Assembly: GCF_900198195.1 (NCBI RefSeq)
Contig: NZ_LT899436.1
Span: 2,819,001 to 2,883,000 of the forward strand
DNA: 64,000 nucleotides
DNA from: Tenacibaculum jejuense
GTDB lineage: Bacteria > Bacteroidota > Bacteroidia > Flavobacteriales > Flavobacteriaceae
Direction of reading: 5' to 3'
Within the stretch, counting starts at the first letter, position 1, and the number at the start of each line of letters is the position of its first letter. Shown piece after piece: positions 39,978 to 61,857 of this stretch. The translations under genes and the position numbers were made by a program. The notes below the pieces were generated by a model that worked only from the letters and a program-made list of their open reading frames with translations, was not told the DNA's origin and ran no database searches.

Positions 39978-40005
39978 TACGTATTATTTTAAGTATTTAT
40001 ACGTA
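39978..40005 (+). promoter_or_regulatory. nirB promoter region with conserved 16-bp nitrate-regulon box
   Basis: TAAGTATTTATACGTA (39990-40005) is an inverted repeat of two 7-bp arms with a 2-bp centre, 18 bp before the nirB ATG. A further TACGTA (39978-39983) lies 22 bp upstream of the one inside the box, two helix turns away, and an ACGTA at 39957-39961 adds a third partial copy. The same box occurs before nrtA and the FNR-like gene. TTATTTTA (39984-39991) is the nearest -7-like octamer and overlaps the box. Confidence 0.6.
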
Positions 40006-40023
40006 GTTTTATATTCAAAATCA

Positions 40024-42546
40024 ATGAATATGAAACATATTATCGTTGTCGGAAATGGAATGGTTGGTTATAAATTTTGTGAAAAATTTACAGAACAAGC
40101 CACTTCAAAAGATTTTAAAATTACTGTTTTTGGAGAAGAACCAAGACCAGCTTATGATAGAGTTCATCTAAGTGAATATTTTGAAAATAAAGATGCAAAA
40201 GCACTTGAAATGGCTCCTATTGAATGGTATAATGATAATAATATTGATTTAATTACCAACACTAGAGTTAATAGTATTGACAAAGTTGCTAGAACTATTG
40301 AAACAATTCATGGTAAAGAATATAACTATGATTATTTAGTATTGGCTACTGGATCATCTCCTTTCGTTCCAAATATCAAAGGTGTAGAAAAAAACGGTGT
40401 TTTTGTATATCGTACTATTGAAGATTTAGAAGGGATGCTTGCCTATGCAGATCAATTAAACGCTGAAAAGCCAAATGCTAAAGCTGCAATATTAGGTGGT
40501 GGTTTATTAGGTTTAGAAGCTGGTAAAGCTGTTTTAGACATGGGATTAGAGCCTCACGTTGTTGAGTTTGCTCCTAAATTAATGCCAAGACAACTAGATC
40601 TTAGAAGTAGTAAAGTACTACAATTAAAACTAGAGTCTATTGGCTTACATATTCATTTAAGCAAAGCTACAAGCGAAATTTTAGGTGATGGAAAAATTAC
40701 TGGAATGCAGTTTGGTGAAGACGATCGTTTAGATGTAGATATGCTTATTATTTCTGCAGGAATTCGTCCAAGAGATGAACTAGCTAAAACATGTAATTTA
40801 GAAACAGGAACTCGAGGTGGTATTATTGTTAATAACAAAATGCAAACTTCAGACCCAAATATTTATGCTATCGGAGAAGTTGCTTTATACAACCAAATGA
40901 TTTACGGTTTAGTAGCTCCAGGTTATGATATGGCTACCATTGCTGTTGAACAAATTATTGGAACTTCAGCATCTGTTATGCAAGAAGATATTGATATGTC
41001 TACTAAATTAAAACTTATAGGTGTTGATGTTGCTAGTTTTGGTGAGCCTTTTATGCCTGCAGATAAAGGACATTCTATAATTTTTGAAAATAAAACTCAA
41101 TTTTTATATAAGAGAATAAATATAAGTTTAGATGGTAAAAAATTACTAGGTGGTATTTTAGTTGGTGATGCTTCTGATTACAGTATGTTGCATCAGATAT
41201 ATTTAAACGGCATGGCAATTCCTGAAGATCCAGCACAATTAATTTTACCTGCTGGTGATGGAAATACTGCTTTTGGTGATGTAATGGATTTACCTGATGA
41301 CGCTCAAATATGCTCTTGTGAAAGCGTTACAAAAGGTCAAATTTGTGGTGTGATAGAAAAAGGTGAAGCTACAGATTTAGCTGGAGTTGTAAGCTGTACA
41401 AAAGCCGGAACTGGTTGTGGTGGATGTAAACCTATGGTTAGTGATTTAACCAATGCTACTTTAAAATCTTTAGGAATTGAAGTGAAAGATTCAGTTTGTG
41501 AACATTTTGATTTAAACCGACAAGATTTATATAAAATCATTCAGGTTAAAGGCTATAAAACTTTCAATGAAGTATTAGATAATCATGGAAATGGCGGTCA
41601 TGGTTGCGAAAAATGCAAGCCTTTAGTTGCTTCCTTAATGGCGACAATTAATGCCGATACAGCAAATGAAGAATATGCTATTCAAGATTCTAACGATCGT
41701 TTTATGGCAAATATTCAGAGAAACGGTACATATTCTGTTGTTCCTAGAGTTCCTGGTGGAGAAATTACTCCAGATAAACTTATTGCGTTGGGTCAAATTG
41801 CAAAGAAATACGATTTATATACTAAGATAACTGGTGGCGTGCGTGTTGATCTATTTGGAGCAACATTAAATCAATTACCGCTAATTTGGAAAGATTTAAT
41901 CGGTCATGGTTTTGAAAGCGGACATGCATATGGAAAATCACTTAGAACTGTAAAAACTTGTGTTGGATCTACTTGGTGTCGTTACGGAATGGATGAAAGT
42001 GTAAGTTTCGGAATTGAACTTGAAAACCGTTATCGAGGTATTCGTGCACCACATAAAATTAAAGGTGGAGTTTCTGGATGTATTCGTGAATGTGCAGAAG
42101 CACGCGGTAAAGATTTTGGTTTAATTGCTGTTGAAGGCGGTTGGAATTTATATGTTGGTGGAAATGGTGGTGCAAACCCTCGCCATGCAGAGTTATTTGC
42201 TGAACAAATTGATAATGAAACTGTAATTAAATATTTAGATCGTTATTTAATGTTCTACATGAGAACTGCAAAACCATTACAACGAACTGCTGCTTGGCAA
42301 GAACGACTAGAAGGTGGTTTAGACTATTTGAAAGAAGTTATTATTGATGACAAACTAGGTATTGCTGAAGATTTAGAACAAGAAATGCAAACTTTAGTAA
42401 ATAGATTCAAATGTGAATGGACACAAGCTATAAATGATCCTGAAATGATGAAACGTTTCAATCACTTTGTAAATAGTAAAGAAGAAGACGATAACCTTGT
42501 TTTTGTACCAATGCGAGAACAAAAAATGCCTGAACCATGGAGTTAA
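40024..42546 (+). CDS. nirB: Assimilatory nitrite reductase [NAD(P)H], large subunit
   Basis: 840 residues, normal for NirB. Domains in order: FAD/NAD(P)-binding reductase (1-~400, with VVGNGMVGYKF and LATGSSPFVP); two BFD-type [2Fe-2S] segments (CSCESV ... CTKAGTGCGGCKP near 420-470, and a second ending HGCEKCKP near 540); and the nitrite/sulfite reductase half with the siroheme-[4Fe-4S] ligands C646, C652, C686 and C690 (CVGSTWC ... CIREC). It reduces nitrite to ammonium with electrons from NAD(P)H in the cytoplasm. First gene of the nirB-nirD-DUF4202-kinase operon. The start could also be the ATG at 40030. Confidence 0.96.
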   Translation: MNMKHIIVVGNGMVGYKFCEKFTEQATSKDFKITVFGEEPRPAYDRVHLSEYFENKDAKALEMAPIEWYNDNNIDLITNTRVNSIDKVARTIETIHGKEYNYDYLVLATGSSPFVPNIKGVEKNGVFVYRTIEDLEGMLAYADQLNAEKPNAKAAILGGGLLGLEAGKAVLDMGLEPHVVEFAPKLMPRQLDLRSSKVLQLKLESIGLHIHLSKATSEILGDGKITGMQFGEDDRLDVDMLIISAGIRPRDELAKTCNLETGTRGGIIVNNKMQTSDPNIYAIGEVALYNQMIYGLVAPGYDMATIAVEQIIGTSASVMQEDIDMSTKLKLIGVDVASFGEPFMPADKGHSIIFENKTQFLYKRINISLDGKKLLGGILVGDASDYSMLHQIYLNGMAIPEDPAQLILPAGDGNTAFGDVMDLPDDAQICSCESVTKGQICGVIEKGEATDLAGVVSCTKAGTGCGGCKPMVSDLTNATLKSLGIEVKDSVCEHFDLNRQDLYKIIQVKGYKTFNEVLDNHGNGGHGCEKCKPLVASLMATINADTANEEYAIQDSNDRFMANIQRNGTYSVVPRVPGGEITPDKLIALGQIAKKYDLYTKITGGVRVDLFGATLNQLPLIWKDLIGHGFESGHAYGKSLRTVKTCVGSTWCRYGMDESVSFGIELENRYRGIRAPHKIKGGVSGCIRECAEARGKDFGLIAVEGGWNLYVGGNGGANPRHAELFAEQIDNETVIKYLDRYLMFYMRTAKPLQRTAAWQERLEGGLDYLKEVIIDDKLGIAEDLEQEMQTLVNRFKCEWTQAINDPEMMKRFNHFVNSKEEDDNLVFVPMREQKMPEPWS

Positions 42547-42950
42547 TTAGTACACAAAATGCAACAAAGAATATGGAAGTAATTCTTGAAAAATATAAAA
42601 CTACACAATTAAAAAATGTAACATTTTGGTTTAAAGCCGCTACTATTCACGATTTCCCAAAAGACGGTGGTGCATGTGTAAAATACAAAGACAAACAAAT
42701 CGCTGTTTTCAATTTCACAAGGTTAAATAAATGGTATGCATGTCAAAATGTTTGTCCACATAAAATGGAAATGGTTTTATCAAGAGGAATGATTGGTGAC
42801 AAAGAAGGTATTCCAAAAGTAGCTTGCCCACTACACAAAAAGACATTTTCTCTAGAAAATGGAGAAAACTTAAATGGTGATTTAGATGCAATTGCTACAT
42901 ATCCTGTAAAAATAGAAGAAGAAAATGTGTATATTGGTTTTTCAGACTAA
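42537..42950 (+). CDS. nirD: Nitrite reductase small subunit with intact Rieske ligands
   Basis: 137 residues. The Rieske [2Fe-2S] ligands are all present: C73 and H75 (CPH) and C97 and H100 (CPLH). Several proteobacterial NirD proteins have the fold without the ligands; this one resembles the cluster-binding type. It partners NirB. The start overlaps the nirB end by 10 bp; an internal ATG at 42573 is an alternative that keeps the whole Rieske domain. Confidence 0.93.
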   Translation: MELISTQNATKNMEVILEKYKTTQLKNVTFWFKAATIHDFPKDGGACVKYKDKQIAVFNFTRLNKWYACQNVCPHKMEMVLSRGMIGDKEGIPKVACPLHKKTFSLENGENLNGDLDAIATYPVKIEEENVYIGFSD

Positions 42951-42960
42951 TTAACTATTC

Positions 42961-43545
42961 ATGAAACCAACTCGCTTTGAAACTGCTTTAGCTTTAATTG
43001 ACAAGAAAAATGCTGAAGACCCAAATCTTTACACTGTAAATAACATGAACTTCCCCAAGGAATTATTGTATTCACAACGTATGAGTAGGCAGTTACTGCA
43101 ATTTAATCCTAATGCATCTAGAGCGTTGCAAATAGCTGCAAGAGCGCAACATATTTGTCGTTGGAAAATTCCACGTAGTGAATATCCAATGGATCGAATA
43201 GGATATTTAAAATGGCGAGAAGAATTAAAAAGATCGCATGCTACTATTACTGCAGAAATACTTGCTGAAGTTGGTTATAATGACGACTTTATAAAAAGAG
43301 TTCGTTTTCTTATCTTAAAAAAACAACTCAAAAAAAATGAAGAAGCACAAACATTAGAAGATGTTATTTGTTTGGTATTTCTAGATTTCTATTTTGAAGA
43401 ATTTGCTGCAAAACATAACGATGAAAAAGTAATTGATATCCTGCAAAAAACACTCGTAAAAATGTCTGATAAAGGAAAAGAAGAAGCTCTAAAAATTAAA
43501 TTTTCAGATAAAAGTTTAGCTTTAGTACAAAAAGCAATACACTAG
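42961..43545 (+). CDS. DUF4202 domain protein
   Basis: 194 residues, cytoplasmic, helical. The family pattern is visible from the start (TRFETALALIDKKNAEDPN) through AARAQHICRWKIPRSEYPMD, YLKWREELKRSH and EDVICLVFLDFYF. The conserved His, Glu and Asp placement recalls HD-type metal hydrolases, but no activity is known to me. It lies 10 bp after nirD and 16 bp before the NarX-like kinase, so it probably serves nitrite assimilation or its control. Confidence 0.85.
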   Translation: MKPTRFETALALIDKKNAEDPNLYTVNNMNFPKELLYSQRMSRQLLQFNPNASRALQIAARAQHICRWKIPRSEYPMDRIGYLKWREELKRSHATITAEILAEVGYNDDFIKRVRFLILKKQLKKNEEAQTLEDVICLVFLDFYFEEFAAKHNDEKVIDILQKTLVKMSDKGKEEALKIKFSDKSLALVQKAIH

Positions 43546-43561
43546 AAAATTTTAAAAATAC

Positions 43562-45370
43562 ATGACTAAGCATAGTAATTCATTAGATCAAAGAACCTTT
43601 GAAAAGCTTAGCCGACTATACATTATAGCTCTAAGTACAATTGCTATTTCTGTAATTGTAAGTCAGTTTTTAATTCGTAAACACTTAAAAAACCAACAAA
43701 GTGATTCTAGAGTGATTAACATAGCTGGAAGGCAACGTATGTTAAGTCAAAAACTTACTAAAGAAACTCTTTTATTATTTTCAGAAAAAGACGCGTCTAA
43801 AAAACAAGAAATAACACAACAGTTAAAGAAAACACTTTCACTGTGGAAATCTTCTCATATAGCCTTACAAAAAGGAAATGATTCTTTAGGATTACCCGGT
43901 AACAATAGCGCAATTGTTAGTAAACAATTTACTGAAATCAATCCAATTTTTGATGTCATAAATAGTGCTACAAACTCAATAATTACACATGTTGAAGAGA
44001 CTAAAATCTCTACTGGAAAATCTTACAATTCGTATATTGACATTATAAAGGTTAATGAAAGTTCATTTCTGACTAAAATGGATGCTATTGTAAATCAATA
44101 TGACATTGAAGCCAATGCTAAAATAAATTGGTTACGAAGACTAGAGTTACTGCTAATGGTCATTACATTGATCATTCTTTTGGGAGAGTTTTTATTCATT
44201 TTTTGGCCAACTGCTAAATCCATCCGAACCACATTAGCAGAATTATTATCTGCTGAGAAACTTGCTAAAAAAATGGCTTTTGATGCTGACGAACTTAGTT
44301 TAGCAAAAGAAAAATCTGTAAAAGAATTAAAAGCATTAAGTAGAGCTATGGATGAAACTCTTTTATCTGCTCGAATTTTACCTGATGGAAGTATTATACA
44401 TATTGGAAACAGATTATCTCGACTTTTTAAATATTCTCAATTTAATGAAGAATACTTCTGGAATATGTTATCTCCTGTTAAAAATGAGCGAAATAGTATT
44501 GAAGAGCTAATTTTAAAACATAAAAAAACAGGATGGCAAGGTGAAGTAAAAGCTTCTACAAAAGATAATGAAGATATTTGGTTAGAAATGGCTATCATTC
44601 CATATAATCCAACAAACGAAAAGTCAGAATTATTAATTATAGCTTCTAATATTACCGAAAAGAAAACCGCTCAACTTGAAATTGATTATTTGAAACAAGT
44701 TGGATTCGAAGAAAAAATGAATCAACAAAAAATAATTTCAAAGAAAATCATTGAAAACCAAGAAAAAGAACAAAGTAGAATTGCAAAAGATGTTCATGAT
44801 GGAATTGGACAAATGTTAACTGGTCTGAAATTTAACCTAGAAAGTGTAAATCCAGAAAACATAGAAAAAACAAAAGAAAAAATTCATCAACTTAAATCAC
44901 AAACTAGCGATATTATTAAAGGTGTAAGAACTGCTACTTTTAATTTAATGCCCTCTGAATTATCAGATCATGGATTAGTTCCTGCATTAACTAAACTCTC
45001 TAAAGAATTAAGTAGATTAACAGATAAAAACATTATTTTCTTCAATAAAACGAATTTTGATTTCCGTTTAGATACCCTAACTGAAATTAATATTTACAGA
45101 ATTACTCAAGAAGCGATTAATAATGCAATAAAATATGCTAATTCTTCACATATTTTACTATCTATATCACATAGTGAAAGTATTCTTAGTATTGCTATAG
45201 ACGACAATGGTAAAGGGTTTGATGCTAACAAACCTATGAGTAAAGATGGTGGTATGGGACTAACATTTATGAAAGAACGTATCAAATATATAAATGGCCG
45301 ATTATTTATAAATTCTGAAGAAGATAAAGGAACTCGAGTTACATTAAACATTCCTTTACATCAATCCTAG
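43562..45370 (+). CDS. NarX-like nitrate/nitrite sensor histidine kinase
   Basis: 602 residues. First membrane span ~18-37; a periplasmic PilJ/NarX-type domain with the P-box-like RVINIAGRQRMLSQKL (residues 50-65), the region that binds nitrate in NarX; second span ~192-214; a PAS domain (~245-370); then a HisKA_3 domain with phosphoacceptor H412 in IAKDVHDGIGQ and a HATPase domain (DDNGKGFD, GGMGLTFMKER). HisKA_3 kinases pair with NarL/FixJ regulators; one is encoded at 53081. Last gene of the nirB operon, so sensor and enzyme are made together. Confidence 0.9.
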   Translation: MTKHSNSLDQRTFEKLSRLYIIALSTIAISVIVSQFLIRKHLKNQQSDSRVINIAGRQRMLSQKLTKETLLLFSEKDASKKQEITQQLKKTLSLWKSSHIALQKGNDSLGLPGNNSAIVSKQFTEINPIFDVINSATNSIITHVEETKISTGKSYNSYIDIIKVNESSFLTKMDAIVNQYDIEANAKINWLRRLELLLMVITLIILLGEFLFIFWPTAKSIRTTLAELLSAEKLAKKMAFDADELSLAKEKSVKELKALSRAMDETLLSARILPDGSIIHIGNRLSRLFKYSQFNEEYFWNMLSPVKNERNSIEELILKHKKTGWQGEVKASTKDNEDIWLEMAIIPYNPTNEKSELLIIASNITEKKTAQLEIDYLKQVGFEEKMNQQKIISKKIIENQEKEQSRIAKDVHDGIGQMLTGLKFNLESVNPENIEKTKEKIHQLKSQTSDIIKGVRTATFNLMPSELSDHGLVPALTKLSKELSRLTDKNIIFFNKTNFDFRLDTLTEINIYRITQEAINNAIKYANSSHILLSISHSESILSIAIDDNGKGFDANKPMSKDGGMGLTFMKERIKYINGRLFINSEEDKGTRVTLNIPLHQS

Positions 45371-45512: not shown

Positions 45513-48500
45513 ATGATTAACTACTACTCGTTGTTAAGTATGAGGGGGAAATTATTGCCCATACTTAACCAAAAGATAGTACTCCTAATTATCTTATCAT
45601 TATGTTTTAATTTCCAATCTTTAATTGCGCAAAAAATGGAACGAATACCTGGCACACAGGTCATTTGTCCTGCAAAATTTGAAGATATGCATTCTAGAAT
45701 GGGAATGAAGCAAGCTTCAGCAAAACAAAGATCTATTATTCAAAGAAATGCAACTGCAGAAATTATTGTGACCTACGGACCAGGTGCTCAGGCTAATCCA
45801 GAAGCTAGAGCAGCTTTCGATTTTGCTTTAGCTATTTGGTCTGAAGAAATAGTTTCTTCTGTTCCTATCCGTATCTCTGCTGAATTTGCAAACTTAGGTC
45901 CAGGAGTACTTGCTTCAGCAGGACCTACAACATTAGTTCGTAATTTCCCGGGAGCACCTCAACAAGATGTTTTTTACCCTATAGCATTAGCAAATTCTCT
46001 AGCTGGAGAAGATTTAGCTCCAGATACTGAGTTTGATTTGGTTGTAAATTTAGGAAATGGAATTCCTTGGTATTTCGGTACTGATGGAAATACACCAGCA
46101 GGTTTATTCGACTTTGTATCCGTTGCTCTTCACGAAGCCGGACATGGTTTAGGTTTTATTGATGGCGGTAATGTTTCTGGAGGTGTCGGAAATATTAATA
46201 ATGGAGGTGATCCTTTTGTTTTTGACACATTTGTTGTTGATGGAAATAACAACTCAGTATTAGATTTACCTAATCCTTCTATAGATCTTGGAGTTTTTTA
46301 TACTAGTGGAGATGTTTTTGTTAATGGAAATTTTGCTGTTGCTGCAAATAATGGAACTAATCCTGAATTATTTGCTCCAAATCCTTTTCAAGGAGGATCA
46401 AGTATAGCACATTGGGATGAAGCTACTTTTCCTGCAGGTGATTCTAATTCACTAATGACTCCACAAATTGGTAGTGCTGAATCTAATTTTGATATTGGAG
46501 ATATTACTCGTGGATTCTTCAGAGACATGGGATGGGTTTTAGCAGAACAAGCTCCGATTACTATTGTTCCAAATCAAATTAGTGACGTACTTAATGTAGA
46601 TGAAACTATAAATGAAGAAATAAGTATAACTAACACTTCAGAAAATCCAGTTAATATTACTATAAATCCTAGTTCAAATGCACTTTTAATAAACTCTATT
46701 AGCAATTCTAATTTTACCATACCTGCTGGTGAAACAACAACTTTTACAGTAGAACTTAGTACAGTTGATGTTAATAAAGGAATTTATGAAGAAAGTATTG
46801 AAATCTTAATAGAAGGTTTTGAAGAAGCTGTTAATATTCCTGTAAACATTAGAGTAATAGATGGTACTGAAGCGCCTGTACTAGTTATAAATCCAACATC
46901 ATTCAGTGAAACATTACAAAAATTACAAGTCGTAACAAGAGATTTAGTGATTCAAAATACGGGTGACGATACATTAACGTATAATATTACTGTAAATGAT
47001 AGTCTTTTAAACACGGTAAACACAAGAACTGCAAAAACTAATGATTTCATTATTAAAAATGGATTTAAAACAGCAACTAGAGCAACAAATTTTAATCCTC
47101 TTCAAAACCCTATCATAAAATTATTATCAATAGACAATACCTTTAATCGTTTAGCTACAAATTTATTTGCTGCTGACTTTGAAAATTATACTATTGGTGA
47201 TTTAAATGGTCAGTTTGGTTGGCAAACTTCTCCAAACACGTGGGAAGTAACTACTGAAAATCCTGCTACAGGTGCCAATGCTATTCAATTACAGGGTGAT
47301 GGTTCTGCAACTAGAGCTTTAGCTTTTACTCCTTCGATTGCCGCAGGTTCTGAACCTTTTATGATTGCTTCAGCAGACATTAATATTCAAGGTAGTGGTG
47401 TTACATGGGAATTTATTCCGCAGTCTAACACAGCTGAATTAGTAAATACTAGAGTACGTTTTAATCCAGATAACACTATTGATATTTTTGATTCAGATAT
47501 TGGTGATTTTACACGAATTGATAGAACAACACCAAGTGGATATTTTAACATTCGAATTGTAATTGACAGAGATGATGCCGCATTAACTATTTTCTTTGAT
47601 GACGAATTAATTTATAGTGGAAGAGCTGCTGCAAATCAGATTGAACAAATTGTTTTATTATCTGAAATGGAAACTGCAACATCTACTATGAATGTTGATA
47701 ATATTGAAATTATTGATGGTGATGCAAATGCTTTCTTCTTATCTGTTTCTCCAACAAGTGGTTCTGTTAATTTTGGCTCTGAAACCACTCTGGATGTAAA
47801 GTTTGACACTAGAGCCTTAGAAGCTGGAGAATATAGCGCCACTATTAATATTTCTAGCAATGATCCTAGAAATGCAAAAATTGATATTCCTGTAGCATTA
47901 ACAGTACTCTCTCCTCCTACTATTACAGTAAATCCTGATAGTTTATCAACTGCTATTAATGTTCAAACAGATAATCCTGCTACAAAAACAGAGATTTTTA
48001 CAATTACAAATACAGGACAAGCAAATTTAGATTTTACTTCTGTTATTGGTAATATTTCATTTACTCCTCCATCAAATTCTAATACAATACTAGGTTCCCT
48101 AGACTTATCGAAATATGGAGTTTCTAACAATGTAAACCATGAATTAAAAAGAGCTTCTACGTCTGGAAATAACTTATCTTCTTTAAAAAAGAAAGCTTTA
48201 AAAAATAGTGCTCCTATAATAGATTCTATAGCTTATGATGCAGGAATTAATTTCCCTGACGATTTTGTAGGGTTTAATAATGGAACTGCATTAACTACGG
48301 CTGTTAAATTTGATGTTGATCGAAATTTCACATTAACTGCAATTCGTAACGGATATAGAACTGAACTTTCTGCAGATCCAATAATTCTTGAAATTTACCA
48401 AGGAGGAACAACTCCAAATGACGGAACATTATTGCTTTCTCAAACTATTACAAAAACTAGTGCAGATGGAGTTTTTGATATCGAAACACTGAATCAAGCT

Positions 48501-51500
48501 TTTAGTTTTTCTAATGGTGATTCATTCTGGGTTGTTCATAAATATCCTCAAGATATTAATTTCCCACAAGGTGTAAATGATGGCGCTCCTGTAAGACCAA
48601 ATACTTATTTTATAAGTGATGATGGTGGTGCTACTTTTTCTACTGTCGATTTTGTTTTCTTAACAAGAGCTTTAAATACACAAACAAATAATAGTATAAC
48701 TTTAAATCCTTCTGAAGGATCAATTGCTCCTGGAGCTTCTGTTGATGTTTCTGTTACTTTTGATGCTACTGATTTATCAAATGGTAATTATGCATCAGAT
48801 ATTTTAATTTCAAGTAATGATCCTGTAAATCCAACAACAACTGTTACTACTAGTTTAGATGTATCTGGTCAAACTTCTTTTATTGAATTATCAGATGAAT
48901 TCATTTTATTTAATAATGTATTTATTGGAAATGATTCTGAAAGAATAATTACACTTAGTAATTCTGGACTTTCACAAATAAACGTTTCATCAATTTCATC
49001 CGATAATGTTGCTTTTTCTGTAACACCTAGCAGTACAACTATTGCCGCAGGAGAAAGTATCGATATTACTGTAAAATTCACTCCTAATATCACTGGGAAT
49101 ATTAATGGAATAATTACAGTAGATAGTGATGCCTCAAATGCTAGTTCTTTACAAATTATCGTTAATGGAGTTGGTGTAGAACCTCCAATTGCCGTTTTAG
49201 ATCCTGCTAACGTTTCAGAAACTGTAGATTCAGGAAATACAGTAGACACGCAAATTGCTTTAAAAAATGAAGGTAAAGCACCTTTATTCTTCTCTTTTCC
49301 TGATCTTGCTGTAGCTGCTGCTTTAGCAAAACCTGACGTAAAATTAAACGATACTAAAATTTTAAACTTTAGCAACTTTAGTAATCAAAAAGGAGCTAAA
49401 GATGATAGAATTGGATCCAAAGTTTTATATAGTCTTGGTACTGACAATGGTTTTGGATATAGCTGGATTGACAGTGATGAAAATGGTGGACCTATTTATA
49501 ATTTTGTTGATATATCTGGAACTGGAACAGAAATTACTGCCGATTTAGGTGGAGATGGAAGTTTAGGTATTCCTTTACAGTTTCCTTTTGAATTCTATGG
49601 TAATACTTACACTAACGCAACTGTAAACGCAAATGGTTTTATCTCTTTTGATGAATCTTCAACACTTACATTCGTTAATAGTCAAATTCCAGTAGATAAT
49701 GGTGTAAATAATATGATCGCTGGTTTATGGGATGATTTAGAACCTCAAAACTTTAATGGAACTGTTCATTATCAAACTATAGATGATGCATTTATTGTAC
49801 AATGGACAAATGCTTCTGTATTTTTAGGTTCAGAAAATGAAACCGTTACTTTCCAAATTGTTTTACATTCAGACGGGAATATCGATGTTTTTTATGAAGA
49901 TGTAGAAACTGCTTCTTTCTTAAATTCTGCGACTGTTGGTATAGAAAATGCAGACGGAACAGACGGCGCACAAGTTGTGTTCAATTCAGATTATATTAAA
50001 AATAGATTGGCATTACGTTTTGTTAAACCAGACGTAGCTTTAACTCCATTTATTTCAAATGTGACTCCGATTTCTGGTGTTGTACCTGCTGGTGGCTCTA
50101 GAAATCTTACCGTAACTTCAGATGCTACCAATTTAAATGATGGTGTTTATTTTGATGAACTAGTGGTATCTAGTAATTCTCCTGATACTTCCACTAGTAC
50201 TTCTCTTATAGAATTAACCGTTAAAGGTTTCCCGAGAATTGAAGTGCCTAGAGATTCAATTACTTTTGAACCTATTTTTGTTGGTTTAGAAAGTAGTACA
50301 ACCTTCTTAATTGAAAATACAGGAAGTAAAACTTTAGAATACAATTTAAGCAATCAAAATTCAGATTTTACTGTAACTGCAACCAATACTTCAATTATAC
50401 CAGGCGCTAGTCAATCTATTACGGTAAACTTCACTCCTACTTCAGTCGGTAGCATAACAGATAATCTTTTAATTACAAGTAATGATGCTTTTGGTAATCA
50501 ATCTATAACAATTCCTTTATCAGGTATTGGTGTTGATCCTCCTGTTATCAATGTTACACCAGAAGAATTTAATTTAACATTAAAAAGAGAAAAAACGACT
50601 ACAGAAATTATTACAATAGAAAATACTGGAGGAAGTACATTAAATTATTCATTGGTAAAAACTCCATTTTCTACTAATCTTACCAACAATACACGAACTG
50701 TAGGATATAGTAAAATTGAATATGAAGAACAGATCATTACAAAAGAACAAACTGATAACAGAATTGGCCCTAAATTTTTAAATGCTAGTGGCGGTCCTGG
50801 AACGTTTGGTTATATATGGACTGATAATAATAGCGGTGGACCTGCTTATAACTTTATAGATATTAGTAGTACAGGAACTCTCGCTAATGTTGGTGCAGAT
50901 GGTGATGAAACAGTTAATTTACCTTTTACATTCAACTTCTTTGGTGAAGATCAAAATAATGTAATTATTGCTGCAAACGGGTTTTTAAGTTTTAGTCCTA
51001 TTACGGCTAGTTTTGGTGCATTTTTAAATCAACAAATACCTTCTACAGAAAACCCTAATTTCTTAATTGCTGGTTTATGGGATGATTTAGAACCTCAAGA
51101 TGGTGACGGTGTTTTTTATCAGGCTTTTGAAGATTATTTTATTGTTCAGTATGAAAATGTTCCTGGATTTGGTTCATCGCCAATAAAAACTCCTGTTACT
51201 TTTCAAATTATATTATTTAAAGATGGATCTATTAAAATGCAATATAAAAATGTTGATTCTGAAATTAGTACGAGTTCAACAGTTGGTTTAGAAGGTCCGA
51301 ACGGAGAAAGTGGATTACAGGTAATTTTTAATACCGAATTTTTAACTAATGAATTAGCTATTACATTTACTCCTCCAATAATGGGTAGTGTAGCACCTGG
51401 AGCTTCTATTGAAGTACCTGTAGCCTTTTCTGCTGAAGGATTAGAAGCAAACACAACTTATAATTCGAATATAATCATTAGCAGTAACGATCCTGCAAAT

Positions 51501-52916
51501 TCAGAAGTAACTGTTCCAGTAACATTAAATGTTCTTGACTCTCCTGAAATTGTAAGTTTTATGCTTATAGACGCAACGACTAACACAGAAGTTGGAATTA
51601 TAAATGATGGTGATATCATCGATCTTAACGATTATAATGGTTTCAATAATTTCAGTATTATCGCTAATCAAGGAACATTAGATATCGCAAGTGTTGTATT
51701 TGATTTTAACGAAGAAACTGCATTCAATACTGAAAACAGAGCTCCTTTTTCTTTAAAGGGTGATTTTAACGGAACAAATTTTAGAGGCGTCGCTTTTAAT
51801 TTAGGAACGAATACTGTATCTGCTACACCATTTGAAGAAAAAAACGGTGATGGAGATTCTGGAATTCCACTTACAATTAATTTTGAAATAATAGATTCTA
51901 ATCCTCCAACGGTTACAGATTTCATATTAATAAACGCAACTAACAATTCTATTATTGGTCCTTTAAATGAAGGTGACACTATTGATCTTGCTGATTTTAG
52001 AAGGAATAATTTTTCAGTAGTTGCAAATACTTCTGGCTCTAGAGTTGAAAGTGTTATTTTCGATTTCAACGATCGTACTAATTTTAATACAGAAAGCAAT
52101 GTTCCATATTCATTAAATGGAGATCTTACTTTCAGAAGAACAAATTATTTCGGAGTACCATTTAGTATAGGAACTCAAACTATTACAGCTACACCATACC
52201 GAAACAATAATGGACAAGGTGATAATGGAACTCCTGTGACAATAACTTTTGAAGTTATTGATAGTGACGCACCTTTAGTTACTAGTTTCACATTAATAGA
52301 TGCGGTTACCAATCAATTATTAGGTCCTTTAAATGAAGGTGATACTATTAATATTGCAAACTTTGGTGCTAATCGTTTCTCTGTTTTAGCAAATACTGAA
52401 GGAGCTGATACTAGAAGTGTAGTATTTGAATTTAACAACCGTAACAGGTTTAATGTAGAAAATTTTGCTCCTTATAGTTTAAAAGGAGATTTTGCTGGAA
52501 ATTTTAACGGTATAAAATTCCCTATTGGAACAAATACAATCACTGCAACTCCTTATAAGAGAATATTTGGTAAAGGAAAACCAGGATCTGGTATTTCAGT
52601 TACTTTTACTGTTATTAACGACAATTCATCTACTGATCAAATGGTTAATGGTCAAATTTCTCCTAATCCAGTTAGAGATATTGCTACTGTTACTTTAAAA
52701 GAGAATAACAATTTTAAAGATATTGCCAATATGAATTTAAAAGTTTCTATTCATACATTATCAGGATTTACCATGAAACAACCTGTTCTTTTCTCTTTAA
52801 ATGAACAACAAAAAGGTCAAGTTAATGTAGGAAGTTTACCTACTGGAATTTATATTTTAAGAGTTACAGATACAAATGATCAAATCATTTCAAGAATCAA
52901 ATTGATTAAGAAATAA
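45513..52916 (+). CDS. Giant T9SS-exported metalloprotease-like surface protein
   Basis: 2,467 residues. Signal peptide (ending SLIAQ), then a metzincin-like domain (~80-335) with HEAGHGLGF (H207, E208, H211), a later AHWDE (H300) and a Met-turn candidate SLMTP (M315). The order HExxH, distant His-Trp, LM resembles leishmanolysins (M8). It continues with several ASH/choice-of-anchor-type Ig domains (SxxPxxPGASxxVxVxFxA), two nidogen-like repeats (NANGFISFDESS / AANGFLSFSPIT, AGLWDDLEPQ) and three ~120-residue repeats (LNEGDTIxxAxF). The C-terminal ~75 residues (ISPNPVRDIATVTL ... RIKLIKK) are a type A T9SS sorting domain. It probably degrades or binds extracellular protein. A start at 45540 is also possible. 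Confidence 0.9.
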   Translation: MINYYSLLSMRGKLLPILNQKIVLLIILSLCFNFQSLIAQKMERIPGTQVICPAKFEDMHSRMGMKQASAKQRSIIQRNATAEIIVTYGPGAQANPEARAAFDFALAIWSEEIVSSVPIRISAEFANLGPGVLASAGPTTLVRNFPGAPQQDVFYPIALANSLAGEDLAPDTEFDLVVNLGNGIPWYFGTDGNTPAGLFDFVSVALHEAGHGLGFIDGGNVSGGVGNINNGGDPFVFDTFVVDGNNNSVLDLPNPSIDLGVFYTSGDVFVNGNFAVAANNGTNPELFAPNPFQGGSSIAHWDEATFPAGDSNSLMTPQIGSAESNFDIGDITRGFFRDMGWVLAEQAPITIVPNQISDVLNVDETINEEISITNTSENPVNITINPSSNALLINSISNSNFTIPAGETTTFTVELSTVDVNKGIYEESIEILIEGFEEAVNIPVNIRVIDGTEAPVLVINPTSFSETLQKLQVVTRDLVIQNTGDDTLTYNITVNDSLLNTVNTRTAKTNDFIIKNGFKTATRATNFNPLQNPIIKLLSIDNTFNRLATNLFAADFENYTIGDLNGQFGWQTSPNTWEVTTENPATGANAIQLQGDGSATRALAFTPSIAAGSEPFMIASADINIQGSGVTWEFIPQSNTAELVNTRVRFNPDNTIDIFDSDIGDFTRIDRTTPSGYFNIRIVIDRDDAALTIFFDDELIYSGRAAANQIEQIVLLSEMETATSTMNVDNIEIIDGDANAFFLSVSPTSGSVNFGSETTLDVKFDTRALEAGEYSATINISSNDPRNAKIDIPVALTVLSPPTITVNPDSLSTAINVQTDNPATKTEIFTITNTGQANLDFTSVIGNISFTPPSNSNTILGSLDLSKYGVSNNVNHELKRASTSGNNLSSLKKKALKNSAPIIDSIAYDAGINFPDDFVGFNNGTALTTAVKFDVDRNFTLTAIRNGYRTELSADPIILEIYQGGTTPNDGTLLLSQTITKTSADGVFDIETLNQAFSFSNGDSFWVVHKYPQDINFPQGVNDGAPVRPNTYFISDDGGATFSTVDFVFLTRALNTQTNNSITLNPSEGSIAPGASVDVSVTFDATDLSNGNYASDILISSNDPVNPTTTVTTSLDVSGQTSFIELSDEFILFNNVFIGNDSERIITLSNSGLSQINVSSISSDNVAFSVTPSSTTIAAGESIDITVKFTPNITGNINGIITVDSDASNASSLQIIVNGVGVEPPIAVLDPANVSETVDSGNTVDTQIALKNEGKAPLFFSFPDLAVAAALAKPDVKLNDTKILNFSNFSNQKGAKDDRIGSKVLYSLGTDNGFGYSWIDSDENGGPIYNFVDISGTGTEITADLGGDGSLGIPLQFPFEFYGNTYTNATVNANGFISFDESSTLTFVNSQIPVDNGVNNMIAGLWDDLEPQNFNGTVHYQTIDDAFIVQWTNASVFLGSENETVTFQIVLHSDGNIDVFYEDVETASFLNSATVGIENADGTDGAQVVFNSDYIKNRLALRFVKPDVALTPFISNVTPISGVVPAGGSRNLTVTSDATNLNDGVYFDELVVSSNSPDTSTSTSLIELTVKGFPRIEVPRDSITFEPIFVGLESSTTFLIENTGSKTLEYNLSNQNSDFTVTATNTSIIPGASQSITVNFTPTSVGSITDNLLITSNDAFGNQSITIPLSGIGVDPPVINVTPEEFNLTLKREKTTTEIITIENTGGSTLNYSLVKTPFSTNLTNNTRTVGYSKIEYEEQIITKEQTDNRIGPKFLNASGGPGTFGYIWTDNNSGGPAYNFIDISSTGTLANVGADGDETVNLPFTFNFFGEDQNNVIIAANGFLSFSPITASFGAFLNQQIPSTENPNFLIAGLWDDLEPQDGDGVFYQAFEDYFIVQYENVPGFGSSPIKTPVTFQIILFKDGSIKMQYKNVDSEISTSSTVGLEGPNGESGLQVIFNTEFLTNELAITFTPPIMGSVAPGASIEVPVAFSAEGLEANTTYNSNIIISSNDPANSEVTVPVTLNVLDSPEIVSFMLIDATTNTEVGIINDGDIIDLNDYNGFNNFSIIANQGTLDIASVVFDFNEETAFNTENRAPFSLKGDFNGTNFRGVAFNLGTNTVSATPFEEKNGDGDSGIPLTINFEIIDSNPPTVTDFILINATNNSIIGPLNEGDTIDLADFRRNNFSVVANTSGSRVESVIFDFNDRTNFNTESNVPYSLNGDLTFRRTNYFGVPFSIGTQTITATPYRNNNGQGDNGTPVTITFEVIDSDAPLVTSFTLIDAVTNQLLGPLNEGDTINIANFGANRFSVLANTEGADTRSVVFEFNNRNRFNVENFAPYSLKGDFAGNFNGIKFPIGTNTITATPYKRIFGKGKPGSGISVTFTVINDNSSTDQMVNGQISPNPVRDIATVTLKENNNFKDIANMNLKVSIHTLSGFTMKQPVLFSLNEQQKGQVNVGSLPTGIYILRVTDTNDQIISRIKLIKK

Positions 52917-53016: not shown

Positions 53017-53061
53017 CTACGTATTTACATCAACATAATATGTAGTTTCTAAGTATATTTG
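53017..53061 (+). promoter_or_regulatory. Promoter of the NarL-like gene with TACGTA half-sites
   Basis: TATATTTG (53054-53061) is an exact -7 box 19 bp before the ATG. Upstream, CTACGTATT (53017-53025) and AATATGTAG (53037-53045) are inverted copies with one mismatch and an 11-nt spacer, and CTAAGTAT (53049-53056) overlaps the -7 box. The half-sites resemble those of the nirB and nrtA boxes, suggesting autoregulation. Confidence 0.5.
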
Positions 53062-53080
53062 CTTATAAATTAATAGACCT

Positions 53081-53755
53081 ATGGAAATTATTAATGTTGT
53101 TTTAGTAGACGATCATGTTTTAGTTCGAGACGGAATTAGAGCATTGTTAGAAGATCAAAATGATATTAAAGTAATAAACGAAGCTTCTAACGGAAAAGAT
53201 GCTTTACAGATTATAGAAAGTATTACTACTCCTATTGTTTTAATTGTTGACATTCGTATGCCTGAAATGACAGGAATAGAGTTAGTAACTATTTTAAAAG
53301 AAAAACACACTGAAAAAGATATCAAAACGTTGGTTCTCTCCATGCACGATTCAGAAGAGTACGTTGTACAATCTATCCAAGCAGGAGCAGATGGTTATTT
53401 GTTAAAAGGTTCTAGTAAAGAAGAGTTCTTAAAAGCTTTACATAAAATTGCTTCTGGCGATAAGTATTTTACAGGTGATGTTTCAGATATTATCATGAAT
53501 AATTTTGTGAATGGAAAAACAACTCAGAAAACTAATACAACTTCAAAAAAATCTGAAAATCCTTTTAAATTAACTAAAAGAGAAACACAAATACTTCAGC
53601 TAGTTCTACAGTTAAAAAACAATAAAGATATTGGAGAAGAACTTAAAATTAGTAAGAGAACCGTTGAAGTACATCGTTTTAATCTGATGAAAAAACTCAA
53701 TGTGAAAAATATCATGGAGCTAAATCAGAAAGCAAATGAATACAATCTAATATAA
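53081..53755 (+). CDS. NarL/FixJ-family response regulator
   Basis: 224 residues. Receiver domain with D10/D11 in LVDDH, phosphoacceptor D57 in LIVDIRMPEMTG, then a LuxR-type helix-turn-helix (LTKRETQILQLVLQLKNNKD ... ISKRTVEVHRFNLMKKL). It is the natural partner of the NarX-like kinase at 43562, the only HisKA_3 kinase in the window, although the metalloprotease-like gene lies between them. Its promoter carries related TACGTA half-sites. A NarL-type protein is the leading candidate to bind the 7-2-7 box. Confidence 0.92.
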   Translation: MEIINVVLVDDHVLVRDGIRALLEDQNDIKVINEASNGKDALQIIESITTPIVLIVDIRMPEMTGIELVTILKEKHTEKDIKTLVLSMHDSEEYVVQSIQAGADGYLLKGSSKEEFLKALHKIASGDKYFTGDVSDIIMNNFVNGKTTQKTNTTSKKSENPFKLTKRETQILQLVLQLKNNKDIGEELKISKRTVEVHRFNLMKKLNVKNIMELNQKANEYNLI

Positions 53756-53757
53756 AT

Positions 53758-57400: not shown

Positions 57401-57419
57401 TTTAAATCTTTTTATTGAA

Positions 57420-58262: not shown

Positions 58263-58273
58263 ATCTTGTAGTT

Positions 58274-59422
58274 TTATATTCCTTCACTTTTATTAAATGA
58301 AACCATATTTTGAATAGTTAGCATGAATCGATCTAAAAGGAAACCAATAATTCCAATCACAAACATCGCTACGATAATTTTAGAGTTTGAATCGTTAGCT
58401 CCATTTTGGAATTCTTCCCAAACAAAAAGCCCTAAACCTGGACTTTGTGCCAATAATTCAATTGCAATTAAAACCATCCAAGCTACAGATAATGTAATAC
58501 GTAAACCGGTAAAAATCAACGGTAAAGATGAAGGTAAAATTACCTTGAATACTTTTTGCAATGGTCCTAATTTTAAAACCTTTGCTACATTGATATAATC
58601 TTTATCTACTGTTGAAACTCCAACAGCTGTATTTACTAAAGTTGCCCACATTGCGCACAAACCAACACTTATAAAAGAAATAACAAATGAGTTATCTGTA
58701 CTAGTACCAATTAATAATGTTTTTACAATCATGAATACTAATAAATACCAAACGACAGGAGAAACTGGTTTAAAAATTTGAATAAACCAATTAAAGGCAT
58801 TTCTTAACTTATCACTTAACCCAATCACAATTCCGATAGGAACAGCTATAAAAAACGCTAATAAGAATCCAGCAAATACCGTTTTAAGACTTGTTAAAAC
58901 AATATCGATAAAAGAAGCTCTACCTGTATATTCTATTAATTCTTTTTTTGCGACTTTACCTGCACTAATTAATGCGGCATTTTCTTTATTGAATACTTTT
59001 ATTTTTTCATTTAAAGATGCAGTTTTATCTCTAAATGCTTTTTTATCTTCTAAAATGATAAAGTGATCATTAATCAAAGTCATAACTGAAGCCCAAACCA
59101 TAGTTGGAGAAGGTAAAGTGTTTGTTTGGCAAGTAGCGTCACCTGATGCAAAACAAGATTTAAGTGCTGCTGCTGCTGCTTCCCCTTGATCTGCAAGAGT
59201 TTTTTCTACTCTATAATTTATCTCTCTTTGTCTTAAACCTTCAGCTCCTAAATGCCAAATACCTATAAAAACTACTATAGAAGCGAAAGGAATACCTACT
59301 TTTTTTAAGGTTGATAATAAGTTAAAACTTGGTTTTTTAACACTTACTTTACTAAAAAGTGTTTTAATTACCTTTTGCCACTTTGCTTCCGCTGGTTGAT
59401 TTACTGTTACACTTTGCTTCAT
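58274..59422 (-). CDS. nrtB: Nitrate ABC transporter permease
   Basis: 382 residues, longer than typical NrtB (~270-280). A first span (~48-65) is followed by an extra ~105-residue loop, probably periplasmic, with two close cysteines in SCFASGDATCQTN. The usual permease core (from ~170) has the EAA-type loop YINVAKVLKLGPLQKVFKVI and LPSSLPLIFTGLRI. It moves nitrate (or nitrite) across the inner membrane together with the two ATPases. Second gene of the operon, 26 bp after nrtA. Confidence 0.9.
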   Translation of the reverse strand: MKQSVTVNQPAEAKWQKVIKTLFSKVSVKKPSFNLLSTLKKVGIPFASIVVFIGIWHLGAEGLRQREINYRVEKTLADQGEAAAAALKSCFASGDATCQTNTLPSPTMVWASVMTLINDHFIILEDKKAFRDKTASLNEKIKVFNKENAALISAGKVAKKELIEYTGRASFIDIVLTSLKTVFAGFLLAFFIAVPIGIVIGLSDKLRNAFNWFIQIFKPVSPVVWYLLVFMIVKTLLIGTSTDNSFVISFISVGLCAMWATLVNTAVGVSTVDKDYINVAKVLKLGPLQKVFKVILPSSLPLIFTGLRITLSVAWMVLIAIELLAQSPGLGLFVWEEFQNGANDSNSKIIVAMFVIGIIGFLLDRFMLTIQNMVSFNKSEGI

Positions 59423-59448
59423 GATCTATATGTTTTTTGGTTTTTTCT

Positions 59449-60834
59449 TTATTTATCTTTATTCCCTATTGAAAAACTATTGATATAACCTATAGGGTCT
59501 TTCGCATCAAACTTTTTACCATCGATAAAGTCTGTGGTTGCTGGTTTATAACCATCTGTTTGTGGAATATCACTTGCTGGGATTTTTCCTTCTTTCACTA
59601 ATAATTCAGCTGCTTTCTTCCAGATATCTGGTCTATAAATTTTTTGAATCGTTTCTGGATACCAATTTGCAGCTTTGGCTTCTGGAATTTGTCCCCAACG
59701 ACGCATTTGTGTTAAAAACCAAATTCCATCTGAATAAAAAGGATATGTCGCATGATATTTATAAAACACATTGAAATCTTTCATTTGTCTTTTGTCTCCT
59801 TTTTCAAACTCAAAAGTACCTGTCATTGAATTCGCTAACACAGACTCTGGAGCTCCTACATATTGAGGTTTAGATAAGATCTTAACTGCTTCTGCTCTAT
59901 TCTCTGGCTGATCTAACCATTTCCCTGCTCTTATTAATGCTTTAGTTACTGCTGTCGCTGTATTTGGATTCTCTTCAATGAATTTTTTAGTCATTACAAA
60001 TACCTTCTCTGGATTATTTTTCCAGATATCATAATTTGTAGTTACTGGAACTCCAATTCCTTTAAAAACTGCTTGTTGGTTCCAAGGTTCTCCTACACAA
60101 TATCCATAAATAGTTCCTGATTCAAGAGTTGCAGGCATTTGTGGTGGTGGCGTTACTGATAATAATACTTCAGCATCTATTTGTCCTTGAGTATTCTCTG
60201 CCGTATACATTCCTGGATGAATACCTGCAGCAGCTAACCAATAACGAATTTCATAATTGTGTGTAGATACAGGAAATACCATTCCCATTTTAAATGGCTT
60301 TGTTTTTCTGTACTCGTCTATAACAGGTTTTAATGCATCTGCTTTTATTGGATGAATTGGTTTTCCTTCTTTGTCTTTAGGAACGTTTGGCTTCATTTTA
60401 GCCCAAACATCGTTAGAAACCGTAATACCATTTCCGTTTAAATCCATAGAAAATGTAGTTACTAATTCTGCTTGTCTACCAAAACCTGCTCCTGCAGCAA
60501 TTGGCTGTCCTGCTAACATATGCGAACCATCTAATTGTCCATCTATAACTCTATCTAATACATTTTTCCAATTTGATTGCGCCTCAACTGATACGAATAA
60601 TCCTTCATCTTCAAAATAGCCTTTCTCTTTAGCAATTGCTAAAGGTGCCATATCTGTTAACTTTATAAAACCAAAAGTTAATTGAGGTTTTTCAATTTCT
60701 AAACCAGTAGTTTTAACTTCTTCTTTAGTTTCGGCTTTTACTTCTTTTTTTTCTTTACCTCCACAAGAATTCAATAAAACAGCTAATGCTATTACTGAAA
60801 TTGTTCTCTGTAGTATAGTTTTCATTTTTTTCAT
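59449..60834 (-). CDS. nrtA: Nitrate-binding lipoprotein of the ABC transporter
   Basis: From the ATG at 60834 the product (461 residues) starts [20 protein letters not shown] and reaches a lipobox LNSC (C24). The mature part has the NrtA/NasF-type substrate-binding layout: [20 protein letters not shown] at the start, [16 protein letters not shown], the [13 protein letters not shown] segment and [13 protein letters not shown] near the end. It captures nitrate in the periplasm. The frame runs open to 60978, but that part encodes the promoter region and gives no signal peptide. First gene of the operon. Confidence 0.93.
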
Positions 60835-60847
60835 TGATGAGTTTTTA

Positions 60848-60884
60848 TACGTATTAATACTTAGTTTTAACAAATATATACGTA
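60848..60884 (-). promoter_or_regulatory. nrtA promoter with conserved 16-bp nitrate-regulon box
   Basis: On the minus strand TATATTTG (60878-60871) is an exact -7 box. The box TAAGTATTAATACGTA (60863-60848) lies 7 nt downstream of it and 13 nt before the ATG. A second TACGTA (60879-60884) abuts the -7 box upstream. The box is 15/16 identical to that of nirB. Its position at the expected transcription start suggests repression or a double role. Confidence 0.6.
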
Positions 60885-60982
60885 CTCCTTTATATAGCTT
60901 ATGATAATACCCATAGCTAAACATCTTTTTAAACCATAACAAAAACTGACAAAACGCAGGTTTTTGACAAACCCTCAATAAA

Positions 60983-61011
60983 TACGTAGTTTTAAGACTA
61001 AAAAATACGTA
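60983..61011. promoter_or_regulatory. Distal pair of TACGTA sites upstream of nrtA
   Basis: TACGTA at 60983-60988 and at 61006-61011, start-to-start distance 23 bp, about 150-175 bp before the nrtA ATG. The left one is in the context ATACGTAGTTTTA, shared with the nirB promoter. They lie between the nrtA promoter and the terminator of the FNR-like gene. Confidence 0.4.
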
Positions 61012-61045
61012 AAAAGAAAAATGTTGCTTAATTACTTAAACAACA
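61012..61045 (-). terminator. Intrinsic terminator of the FNR-like gene
   Basis: On the minus strand TGTTGTTTAA (61045-61036) pairs with TTAAGCAACA (61031-61022) around a TTAC-type loop, one G-T pair, followed by TTTTTCTTTTT. It separates the regulator from nrtA, which is on the same strand. Confidence 0.8.
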
Positions 61046-61076
61046 CTTTTGCTTTATATTCTAAAAAATTAAATAC

Positions 61077-61808
61077 TTAACTATCTAAGAAAAAATTATG
61101 CTGACTAATTTCAGCTTTTAAGCCTTCTACATCTAGAATACTTATTTTTTTACCTCTAGCACCAATAAACTGTTCCTTTTTCAGACTAGAAAAAGTACGA
61201 ATTACTTGTTCTTCTGTAGTCCCTGCATAATCTGCATACTCTTTACGAGTTAACAATAAGTTCAAATAGCCCCCAGTAGTTCCAAACTTTCTATTTATAT
61301 ATAATAAGGTATCTATTACTCTTTCTCTTACAGTCATTTGAGAAATTGTTTTTACCTTACTTTCACTTCTGTTCAGTTCGTTTGCATAGAATAACATCAT
61401 ATCATAAGATAATTTAGCACTACTTAATAATGCTTCTTGCAAATGTTCTTTAGAAAAATAACACAATAAAGTATCTTCTAGAGCTACAGCACCTATTGGA
61501 TAAGACTCTTCTGTTCCAAAACCACGATGACCAACTACTTCTCCGTCTTTTGCAAATCGAACAATTTGCTCTTTACCATTGATTCCTGTTCTAAAAACTT
61601 TAGCAGTTCCTTCTAGAATTATAAATAAACCATTCACCATAGCTCCCTCCATTATAAACTGCTGTCCTTTTTTACATCGTAAAAGTTTTTTGTTTTCAAC
61701 AAATTTTGAAATATTTTGATTCTTACGATTTACGTATATCAAACAGTTAATATTTAAACAGTTTTGACAAGAATAATTCGAATTAGTGATGTTGTTTTTT
61801 GTACTCAA
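61077..61808 (-). CDS. FNR-type Crp/Fnr regulator with candidate iron-sulfur cysteines
   Basis: 243 residues. The N-terminus has C14, C17 and C22 (SCQNCLNINC), and a fourth cysteine C116 (TLLCYFS) at the place of FNR Cys122, so a [4Fe-4S] oxygen- or NO-sensing cluster is likely. A cyclic-nucleotide-like beta-roll follows (~45-130), then a dimer helix and a winged helix (LTRKEYADYAGTTEEQVIRT) whose recognition helix keeps the FNR Glu and Arg. The start is TTG: an in-frame stop codon lies two codons before it and the next in-frame ATG (codon 53) would remove the cysteines. The promoter carries a nitrate-regulon box variant. Confidence 0.88.
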   Translation of the reverse strand: MSTKNNITNSNYSCQNCLNINCLIYVNRKNQNISKFVENKKLLRCKKGQQFIMEGAMVNGLFIILEGTAKVFRTGINGKEQIVRFAKDGEVVGHRGFGTEESYPIGAVALEDTLLCYFSKEHLQEALLSSAKLSYDMMLFYANELNRSESKVKTISQMTVRERVIDTLLYINRKFGTTGGYLNLLLTRKEYADYAGTTEEQVIRTFSSLKKEQFIGARGKKISILDVEGLKAEISQHNFFLDS

Positions 61809-61831
61809 AAGCTAAAATTAAGTCTGGAAAT

Positions 61832-61857
61832 TACGTAATAATACTTGTTCAAAATAA
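61832..61857 (-). promoter_or_regulatory. FNR-like gene promoter with a variant of the nitrate-regulon box
   Basis: On the minus strand CAAGTATTATTACGTA (61847-61832) has the same 7-2-7 layout as the nirB and nrtA boxes with few changes. It lies 23 bp before the TTG start. TTATTTTG (61857-61850), a one-mismatch -7 octamer, is 2 nt upstream of it. Confidence 0.55.

Follow-up and report, generated by a model that had tools for sequence, protein, structure and literature searches.

The window analysed here is a 64-kb stretch (64,000 nucleotides) of the Tenacibaculum jejuense genome, positions 2,819,001 to 2,883,000 of contig NZ_LT899436.1, in which a conserved 16-bp box precedes nirB, nrtA and the gene of an FNR-like protein. 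Comparison of sequences indicates that this box is probably tied to a NarL-like response regulator encoded in the same region together with a NarX-like sensor kinase, and that it probably marks a regulon centred on nitrate assimilation. Judging from aligned promoters, the box is moreover part of a promoter-operator module that includes the -7 promoter element, which corrects its initial reading as an isolated box. The features concerned are the following:

39990..40005, + strand: NarL-type box 5' of nirB, TAAGTATTTATACGTA, predicted to span -26 to -11
60848..60863, - strand: NarL-type box 5' of nrtA, TAAGTATTAATACGTA, predicted to span +4 to +19
61832..61847, - strand: NarL-type box 5' of the FNR-like gene, CAAGTATTATTACGTA
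53050..53065, + strand: degenerate box 5' of the narL-like gene, TAAGTATATTTGCTTA, two mismatches
53081..53755, + strand: NarL-like response regulator, proposed box binder, Response_reg and GerE domains
43562..45370, + strand: NarX-like sensor kinase, PilJ-type sensor, weak PAS, HisKA_3, HATPase_c
40024..42546, + strand: nirB, nitrite reductase large subunit, NIR_SIR, Pyr_redox_2, Fer2_BFD
59449..60828, - strand: nrtA, nitrate ABC transporter binding protein, start at or near 60828

The three boxes were all recovered where the initial annotation had placed them, on the strands that it had given, and its 7-2-7 plan (two inverted heptamers with a 2-bp centre) is correct. Its statement that the heptamer lies one position away from the proteobacterial TACYYMT holds for TACGTAT but not for the other half, TAAGTAT, which is two positions off. 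The core AAGTATTNNTACGTA occurs exactly three times in the window, each time inside one of the three boxes, while the mean expected under a first-order Markov model is 0.007 and none of 300 shuffles reached three copies. With up to two mismatches, the window shows a weak excess (9 versus 4.8 expected, 9 being reached by 4 of 100 shuffles). In the whole genome (4.61 Mb, one contig), TAMGTATTWATACGTA is found with 0-1 mismatch at four places only, namely nirB, nrtA, nasA (26 bp 5' of the gene, just outside the window) and glnB-amtB-gltB; the box of the FNR-like gene is two mismatches away from it. No genome-wide excess is seen for TAMGTATTWATACGTA at up to two mismatches (31 versus 38 for the reversed control). 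In the same way, the looser 16-mer TAMGTATWWATACKTA at up to one mismatch is not specific alone in this genome (7 versus 5 in the control), but becomes specific once nnTTTG is added (5 versus 0). The region upstream of glnB-amtB-gltB (L008:7610-7992, genome 3101610-3101992) holds two boxes, the second one weaker; at up to one mismatch, the glnB-amtB box is found in this genome and at none of the 29 other amtB loci examined, a comparison covering 30 genomes including this one, with 59 further amtB genomes left out.

The link between the box and NarXL appears in a family sample of 129 Flavobacteriaceae genomes from 128 genera. NirB, the NarX-like kinase and the NarL-like regulator (E cut-offs of 1e-100, 1e-40 and 1e-45, respectively) are each present in 29 of them, and these are the identical 29. 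Among these 29, to which both searches were confined, NasA is present in all and NrtA in 23, i.e. the 22 genomes that bear the FNR-like gene plus G124. The nirB box is found in all 29 at up to two mismatches and in 28 at up to one, about 18-39 bp 5' of the aligned start; in those regions no reversed-pattern match comes closer than two mismatches. Over whole genomes, TAMGTATWWATACKTANNTTTG at up to one mismatch occurs in 29/29 NarXL genomes with 107 strand matches (reversed control, 5), as against 12 of the 100 genomes without NarXL, with 18 matches (control, 6); in such strand counts a palindromic site may be counted twice. For the 16-mer alone, the mean per genome is 7.2 with NarXL (control 4.9) and 2.2 without (control 2.6). 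One genome without NarXL, G030 (L383-L386), holds several perfect palindromes of the box type followed by T-rich runs, possibly terminators.

Beyond this sample, the best 80 nirB loci of named records were considered, 79 of them with a readable promoter (that of L301 is cut), NarX or NarL being searched for in flanks of up to 10 kb and the box at up to two mismatches. Box and NarXL occur together at 61 loci, NarXL without box at six, box without NarXL in the flank at two (L309, and L329 on a 7-kb contig), and neither at ten (Fisher 3e-7, in a statistic that ignores kinship). Box-positive loci outside Flavobacteriaceae belong to Chryseobacterium, Algoriphagus, Echinicola, Cyclobacterium and a Marinoscillum bin, while the ten loci with neither belong to five Mucilaginibacter, Niastella, Paraflavisolibacter, a Bacteroidetes bin, Pelagicoccus and Rubritalea. 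Seven loci lacking both NarXL and box (L340, L342, L344, L347, L348, L351 and L355) carry in their flank a Crp/Fnr gene that is 33-37% identical, which may represent another kind of switch for nitrite assimilation. As a separate observation, L343, filed as Rickettsiales bacterium isolate NP5, has a nirB promoter and regulators closely resembling those of the Marinoscillum bin L345; the record is probably misassigned.

The recognition helix of the NarL-like protein offers the most direct evidence for its reading of the box. The best solved relative of this protein is E. coli NarL (1a04, E 1.7e-33, first of 27 distinct sequences at E <= 1e-10), and the phosphoacceptor and switch residues D13, D14, D59, S87 and K109 are kept in 29/29 NarL-like proteins (numbering follows E. 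coli NarL). In E. coli NarL, K188, V189 and K192 contact DNA, residue 189 facing it. These contacts are not retained as a set: position 188 is E in 29/29, 189 is V in 22/29 or T in 7/29, and 192 is F in 29/29, so that the helix reads E188-V/T189-H190-R191-F192-N193 instead of K-V-H-V-K-H, all positions but 189 being invariant. Among 61 named NarL rows, E188 is found in 60, R191 in 61, F192 in 59 and N193 in 61. Residue 189 varies together with base 3 of the box: counting boxes at up to one mismatch in the promoters or loci sampled, TACGTA makes up 90 of 120 half-sites in the 22 genomes with T189 and 81 of 326 in the 61 genomes with V189, and its fraction exceeds one half in 18/22 T genomes versus 1/61 V genomes. 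A quick tree built from 83 NirB rows places seven changes of residue 189; the six independent pairs taken from its supported branches shift on average 5.6 times in the same direction and 0.0 times in the opposite one, with a median p of 0.031, the smallest value possible. The NarL-like protein would accordingly be the likely binder of the box, and the NarX-NarL circuit put forward by the initial annotation, which had rightly identified a NarX-like kinase (HisKA_3/HATPase_c) and a NarL-type regulator (Response_reg/GerE) in the region, gains support from the co-occurrence with NarXL, from this covariation and from the independence of the box from the FNR-like gene, described below.

Several points weigh against this assignment. 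The p value of the pair test ranges from 0.031 to 0.125 over the possible pairings, and its cut-off (fraction above 0.5) was chosen after the counts had been viewed; lowering it to 0.34 brings the median p to 0.0625, and restricting the test to the nirB box gives pairs of 3.6 versus 0.1 and a median p of 0.125. Reversed-control matches are commoner in NarXL genomes (the 4.9 versus 2.6 given above), so that part of the box excess reflects composition or size. Six named loci have NarXL without a full box: L292, with Ns within the promoter stretch; L294; L337, in which the recognition helix is rebuilt, as in no other of the 61 named NarL rows; and three loci of Lewinella type that have TACGTA half-sites only, ending in TACGTAGATTTG. 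Finally, NarL, NarX, NirB and NasA always co-occur in the sample, and co-occurrence can therefore not single out NarL by itself.

How the box is placed is best appreciated from the refined signal, TAMGTAT-WW-ATACKTA-nn-TTTG, in which the final TA of the box doubles as the TA of the flavobacterial -7 element. In the window, it involves:

40004..40011, + strand: -7 promoter element of nirB, TAGTTTTA, i.e. TAnnTTTG with the last letter off, its TA common to the box
39978..39983, + strand: extra half-site TACGTA, 12 bp 5' of the nirB box start
60871..60878, - strand: -7 element of nrtA, TATATTTG
60879..60884, - strand: half-site TACGTA, adjoining the nrtA -7 element

Alignment of the 29 nirB boxes shows invariant TA-GTA....TAC-TA letters and four central bases that are always A or T. 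The geometry is that of a NarL-type operator, with inverted heptamers, a 2-bp centre and TA outermost, whereas position 4 of the half-site is G throughout and thus departs from TACYYMT. After the box and two free bases, the letters of TTTG are found in 26, 29, 28 and 26 of the 29 promoters. When 92 box-bearing nirB promoters are considered (29 of the family and 63 named, the genomes of L289 and L297 being also among the 29), nnTTTG directly follows the box exactly in 73 and with up to one mismatch in 89, while TTTG at nine other offsets tested was met once altogether. Since TAnnTTTG at -12 to -5 is described as the sigma-A -7 element of flavobacteria (PMC9723704), the nirB box would lie at about -26 to -11. 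On predicted start sites, the box centres are expected at about -18.5 and, for nrtA, at about +11.5; the listed nrtA open reading frame starts at 60978, upstream of the box, and the gene start is placed at or near 60828. Extra half-sites in the 92 promoters cluster, counted from the box start, at -34 to -32 (38), -14 to -12 (31) and +30 to +32 (53), spacings close to whole helical turns that suggest phasing. In addition, a CAATTTGnGAAATT...AATAAT element recurs about 45-70 bp 5' of the box in nirB promoters, most clearly in FNR-bearing genomes, with look-alikes in G105 and G021, both without the FNR-like gene.

Regarding the genes under the box, the comparison of related Flavobacteriaceae places it, besides nirB (29/29), in front of nrtA in 21 of 23 promoters (at up to one mismatch, absent in G002 and G111), of the FNR-like gene in 17 of 22 orthologous promoters (at up to two) and of nasA in 12 of 29 (at up to one, in the 420 nt searched); where nasA has none, the box match is in some cases at least found 5' of an upstream transporter gene. 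The narL promoters have variants only, often TACGTAGTATTACKTA, with the exception of G002 and its distant perfect box. Downstream genes were read in 34 extra stretches, mostly around genome-wide box matches. They comprise a NarK-type MFS transporter (two kinds, at 14 and two loci, respectively), nasA, nirB, nrtA, the FNR-like gene, moeA (G111) and cobA (G010), the latter divergent from nirB with a box common to both. The box matches of L362, L366 and L367 lie 5' of genes without evident nitrate role, and that of L364 has no gene in range. Protein families were checked for seven of these products plus nasA and glnB, three NarK proteins scoring just under the curated cut-off (302 versus 312) and one at 190; the other NarK-like loci were called by eye. 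As it stands, the regulon would include nirB, nasA, NarK-type transporters, nrtA and the FNR-like gene, as well as glnB-amtB in this genome.

In the mechanism that we propose, the box would be the operator of the NarL-like regulator, partnered with the NarX-like kinase. The kinase may sense nitrate or nitrite by a PilJ/NarQ-type four-helix sensor, as its sequence and predicted fold suggest, and a regulator dimer would bind TAMGTAT-WW-ATACKTA in the NarL-like 7-2-7 geometry, with a changed recognition helix and heptamer. In Flavobacteriaceae, the operator would overlap the -7 element in the promoters of nirB, the NarK-type transporters, nasA and the fnr-like gene, and lie just 3' of the predicted start at nrtA. 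From this position, the bound regulator may occlude RNA polymerase until the nitrate signal lifts the block, an account that has, in our view, an even chance of being right. It is preferred because -18.5 and +11.5 resemble the sites from which E. coli NarL represses frdA, which lie around the start and include a 7-2-7 site at -4/+6, whereas activation of ogt derivatives occurs from -44.5, -67.5 and -77.5 (PMC7419079, PMC4549865). Two observations nevertheless speak for the opposite polarity. The nirB box of Echinicola and Cyclobacterium (L339, L349, L350) is further upstream, near -37 if TAACTTAG/TACCTTAG is taken as the -7 element, with more half-sites flanking it, a place compatible with an activator. 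Besides, E. coli NarL binds once phosphorylated in the presence of nitrate, a behaviour hard to square with repression of nitrate assimilation.

The NarL-like protein might instead activate, which we hold possible although clearly less probable: bound in the spacer between -33 and -7, it would replace a missing -33 contact and recruit or position RNA polymerase with nitrate. Nitrate induction would match the E. coli polarity, and TTG shows no enrichment at the -33 place (8 of 92 nirB promoters versus 8, 10 and 8 in control windows), so these promoters may be activator-dependent. However, -33 elements are generally weak in Bacteroidota, the E. coli sites named above argue the other way, and activation from the nrtA box, 3' of the -7 element, is hard to imagine. 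More tentative still is the fuller form of this idea, in which operator and sigma-A -7 element make up one fused module, TAMGTATWWATACKTAnnTTTG, and a spacer-bound regulator within a helically phased array of half-sites supplies the -33 function, switching assimilation on with nitrate. If true, such spacer-bound activation would be a mode unlike the known NarL/LuxR class I and II.

Far less probable is that another regulator common to all these genomes binds the box and that NarXL merely travels with the nitrate genes. Linkage could account for the perfect co-occurrence of NarXL, NirB and NasA in the sample, but not readily for the covariation of base 3 with a residue of the NarL recognition helix, for the rebuilt NarL helix of the box-less L337, or for the ten nirB promoters with no NarXL in the flank, from which the box is missing.

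The initial annotation had named the FNR-like protein as the alternative binder. The features concerned are:

61077..61808, - strand: gene of the FNR-like regulator (Crp/Fnr family), cNMP_binding and HTH_Crp_2 domains
60901..60914, - strand: candidate FNR-like site 5' of nrtA, ATGGGTATTATCAT, predicted centre -41.5

That this protein would read the box as an NtcA-like nitrogen regulator is the least probable of these readings: the box also fits a Crp/Fnr half-site frame, the equivalents of E209 and R213 are kept in 22/22, the gene adjoins nrtA and has a box in its own promoter, and boxes precede glnB-amtB in this genome, but the ortholog (at least 51% identity, next relatives 36%) is confined to 22 genomes, all within the 29, and the seven NarL-bearing genomes without it keep the nirB box (7/7), as G124 keeps the nrtA box. 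The FNR-like protein is thus unnecessary for the box. Furthermore, the ten box-less named nirB loci without NarXL in the flank include seven that have a Crp/Fnr relative of 33-37% identity there, and a separate candidate site, ATG-N8-CAT, accompanies the FNR-like gene. Matches to this gene in G097 and G111 contain a stop.

This candidate site is centred exactly 29 nt 5' of the nrtA -7 element, i.e. at -41.5, in 18 of the 22 FNR-bearing genomes; G002 has CTG-N8-CAT, G066, G097 and G111 do not match, and G124, without the FNR-like gene, has no ATG-N8-CAT in its nrtA promoter. The stricter ATGR-N6-YCAT is found in 13/23 nrtA and 1/29 narL promoters and in 0/29 nirB, 0/29 nasA and 0/22 FNR promoters, with a background of 83 in 4600 mononucleotide shuffles. 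Among named nrtA promoters, the site is present in 0/9 without an FNR-like gene in the flank and in just 3/8 with one (one of them CTG-N8-CAT), the latter count being unfavourable to the assignment. At -41.5, the class II position of Crp/Fnr activators, the nrtA promoter has the TG-N8-CA dyad expected of such an operator (start sites predicted), which agrees with class II activation of nrtA by a Crp/Fnr protein, most clearly in the closer relatives. Most likely, the FNR-like protein, itself under a box, would activate nrtA from there, which would amount to a feed-forward loop. FNR, an oxygen sensor, holds a [4Fe-4S] cluster with four cysteines. The FNR-like protein differs from E. coli FNR by I in place of S212 in 22/22 and by C-x2-C-x4-C, found in 21/22, instead of C-x2-C-x5-C, a spacing shorter by one residue; since these cysteines and C122 (22/22) are kept, an iron-sulphur cluster is conceivable. 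HcpR2 of Bacteroides and others has GTAACnnnnGTTAC (PMC1274295). By contrast with ATG-N8-CAT, the general NtcA site is GTA-N8-TAC.

Concerning the sensor kinase, its gene lies 3' of nirBD. In Pfam terms, PAS is sub-threshold in this genome (26.7 bits, cut-off 27), HAMP is not detected, and HisKA_3 and HATPase_c are present, while the N-terminus matches PilJ. In a Foldseek search with the predicted sensor fold (mean pLDDT 83.8), the Pseudomonas aeruginosa nitrate receptor McpN comes first (E 9.5e-4) and NarQ next (9.1e-3), the serine receptor Tsr tying with NarQ; VIA-align does not discriminate. The P-box arginine is conserved in four-helix nitrate sensors, and a GRQR motif with R59 is present in at least 90% of 17 kinase rows, being lost in G027. 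A 2467-aa open reading frame with HYDIN/ASH-type Ig repeats (window 45513-52916) separates the narX-like from the narL-like gene; in relatives, G045 and G095 among them, some 65 bp lie between these two genes. Two further genes may be mentioned, i.e. a DUF4202 gene (window 42961-43545) between nirD and the narX-like gene, and nasA itself (L007:4937-8449), a fusion of a nitrate reductase catalytic part with a C-terminal NirB-like flavoprotein part (704-1165).

Rodionov 2005 covers HcpR in Bacteroides and NarP in proteobacteria (PMC1274295). Our literature search, to which most subscription papers were out of reach, returned no account of a Bacteroidota NarXL regulon or of the control of nitrate assimilation in flavobacteria. 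The proposed Bacteroidota circuit is best described as a variant of the NarXL kind, new to the literature searched. It shares with E. coli NarX-NarL and NarQ-NarP a kinase combining a HisKA_3 part with a sensor that may be a nitrate-receptor-like four-helix bundle, a Response_reg plus GerE regulator, operators of the same geometry, extra single half-sites in many promoters, and targets in nitrate/nitrite reduction. It differs from them in that these targets are assimilatory, in its TAMGTAT heptamer, and in the fusion of the operator to the -7 element. Flavobacteria are abundant in the sea. The analysis yields for them a named operator, a regulator, a second regulator with a candidate site, a target list and a specificity residue, and the 22-bp signature can be searched for regulon prediction in genomes and metagenomes.

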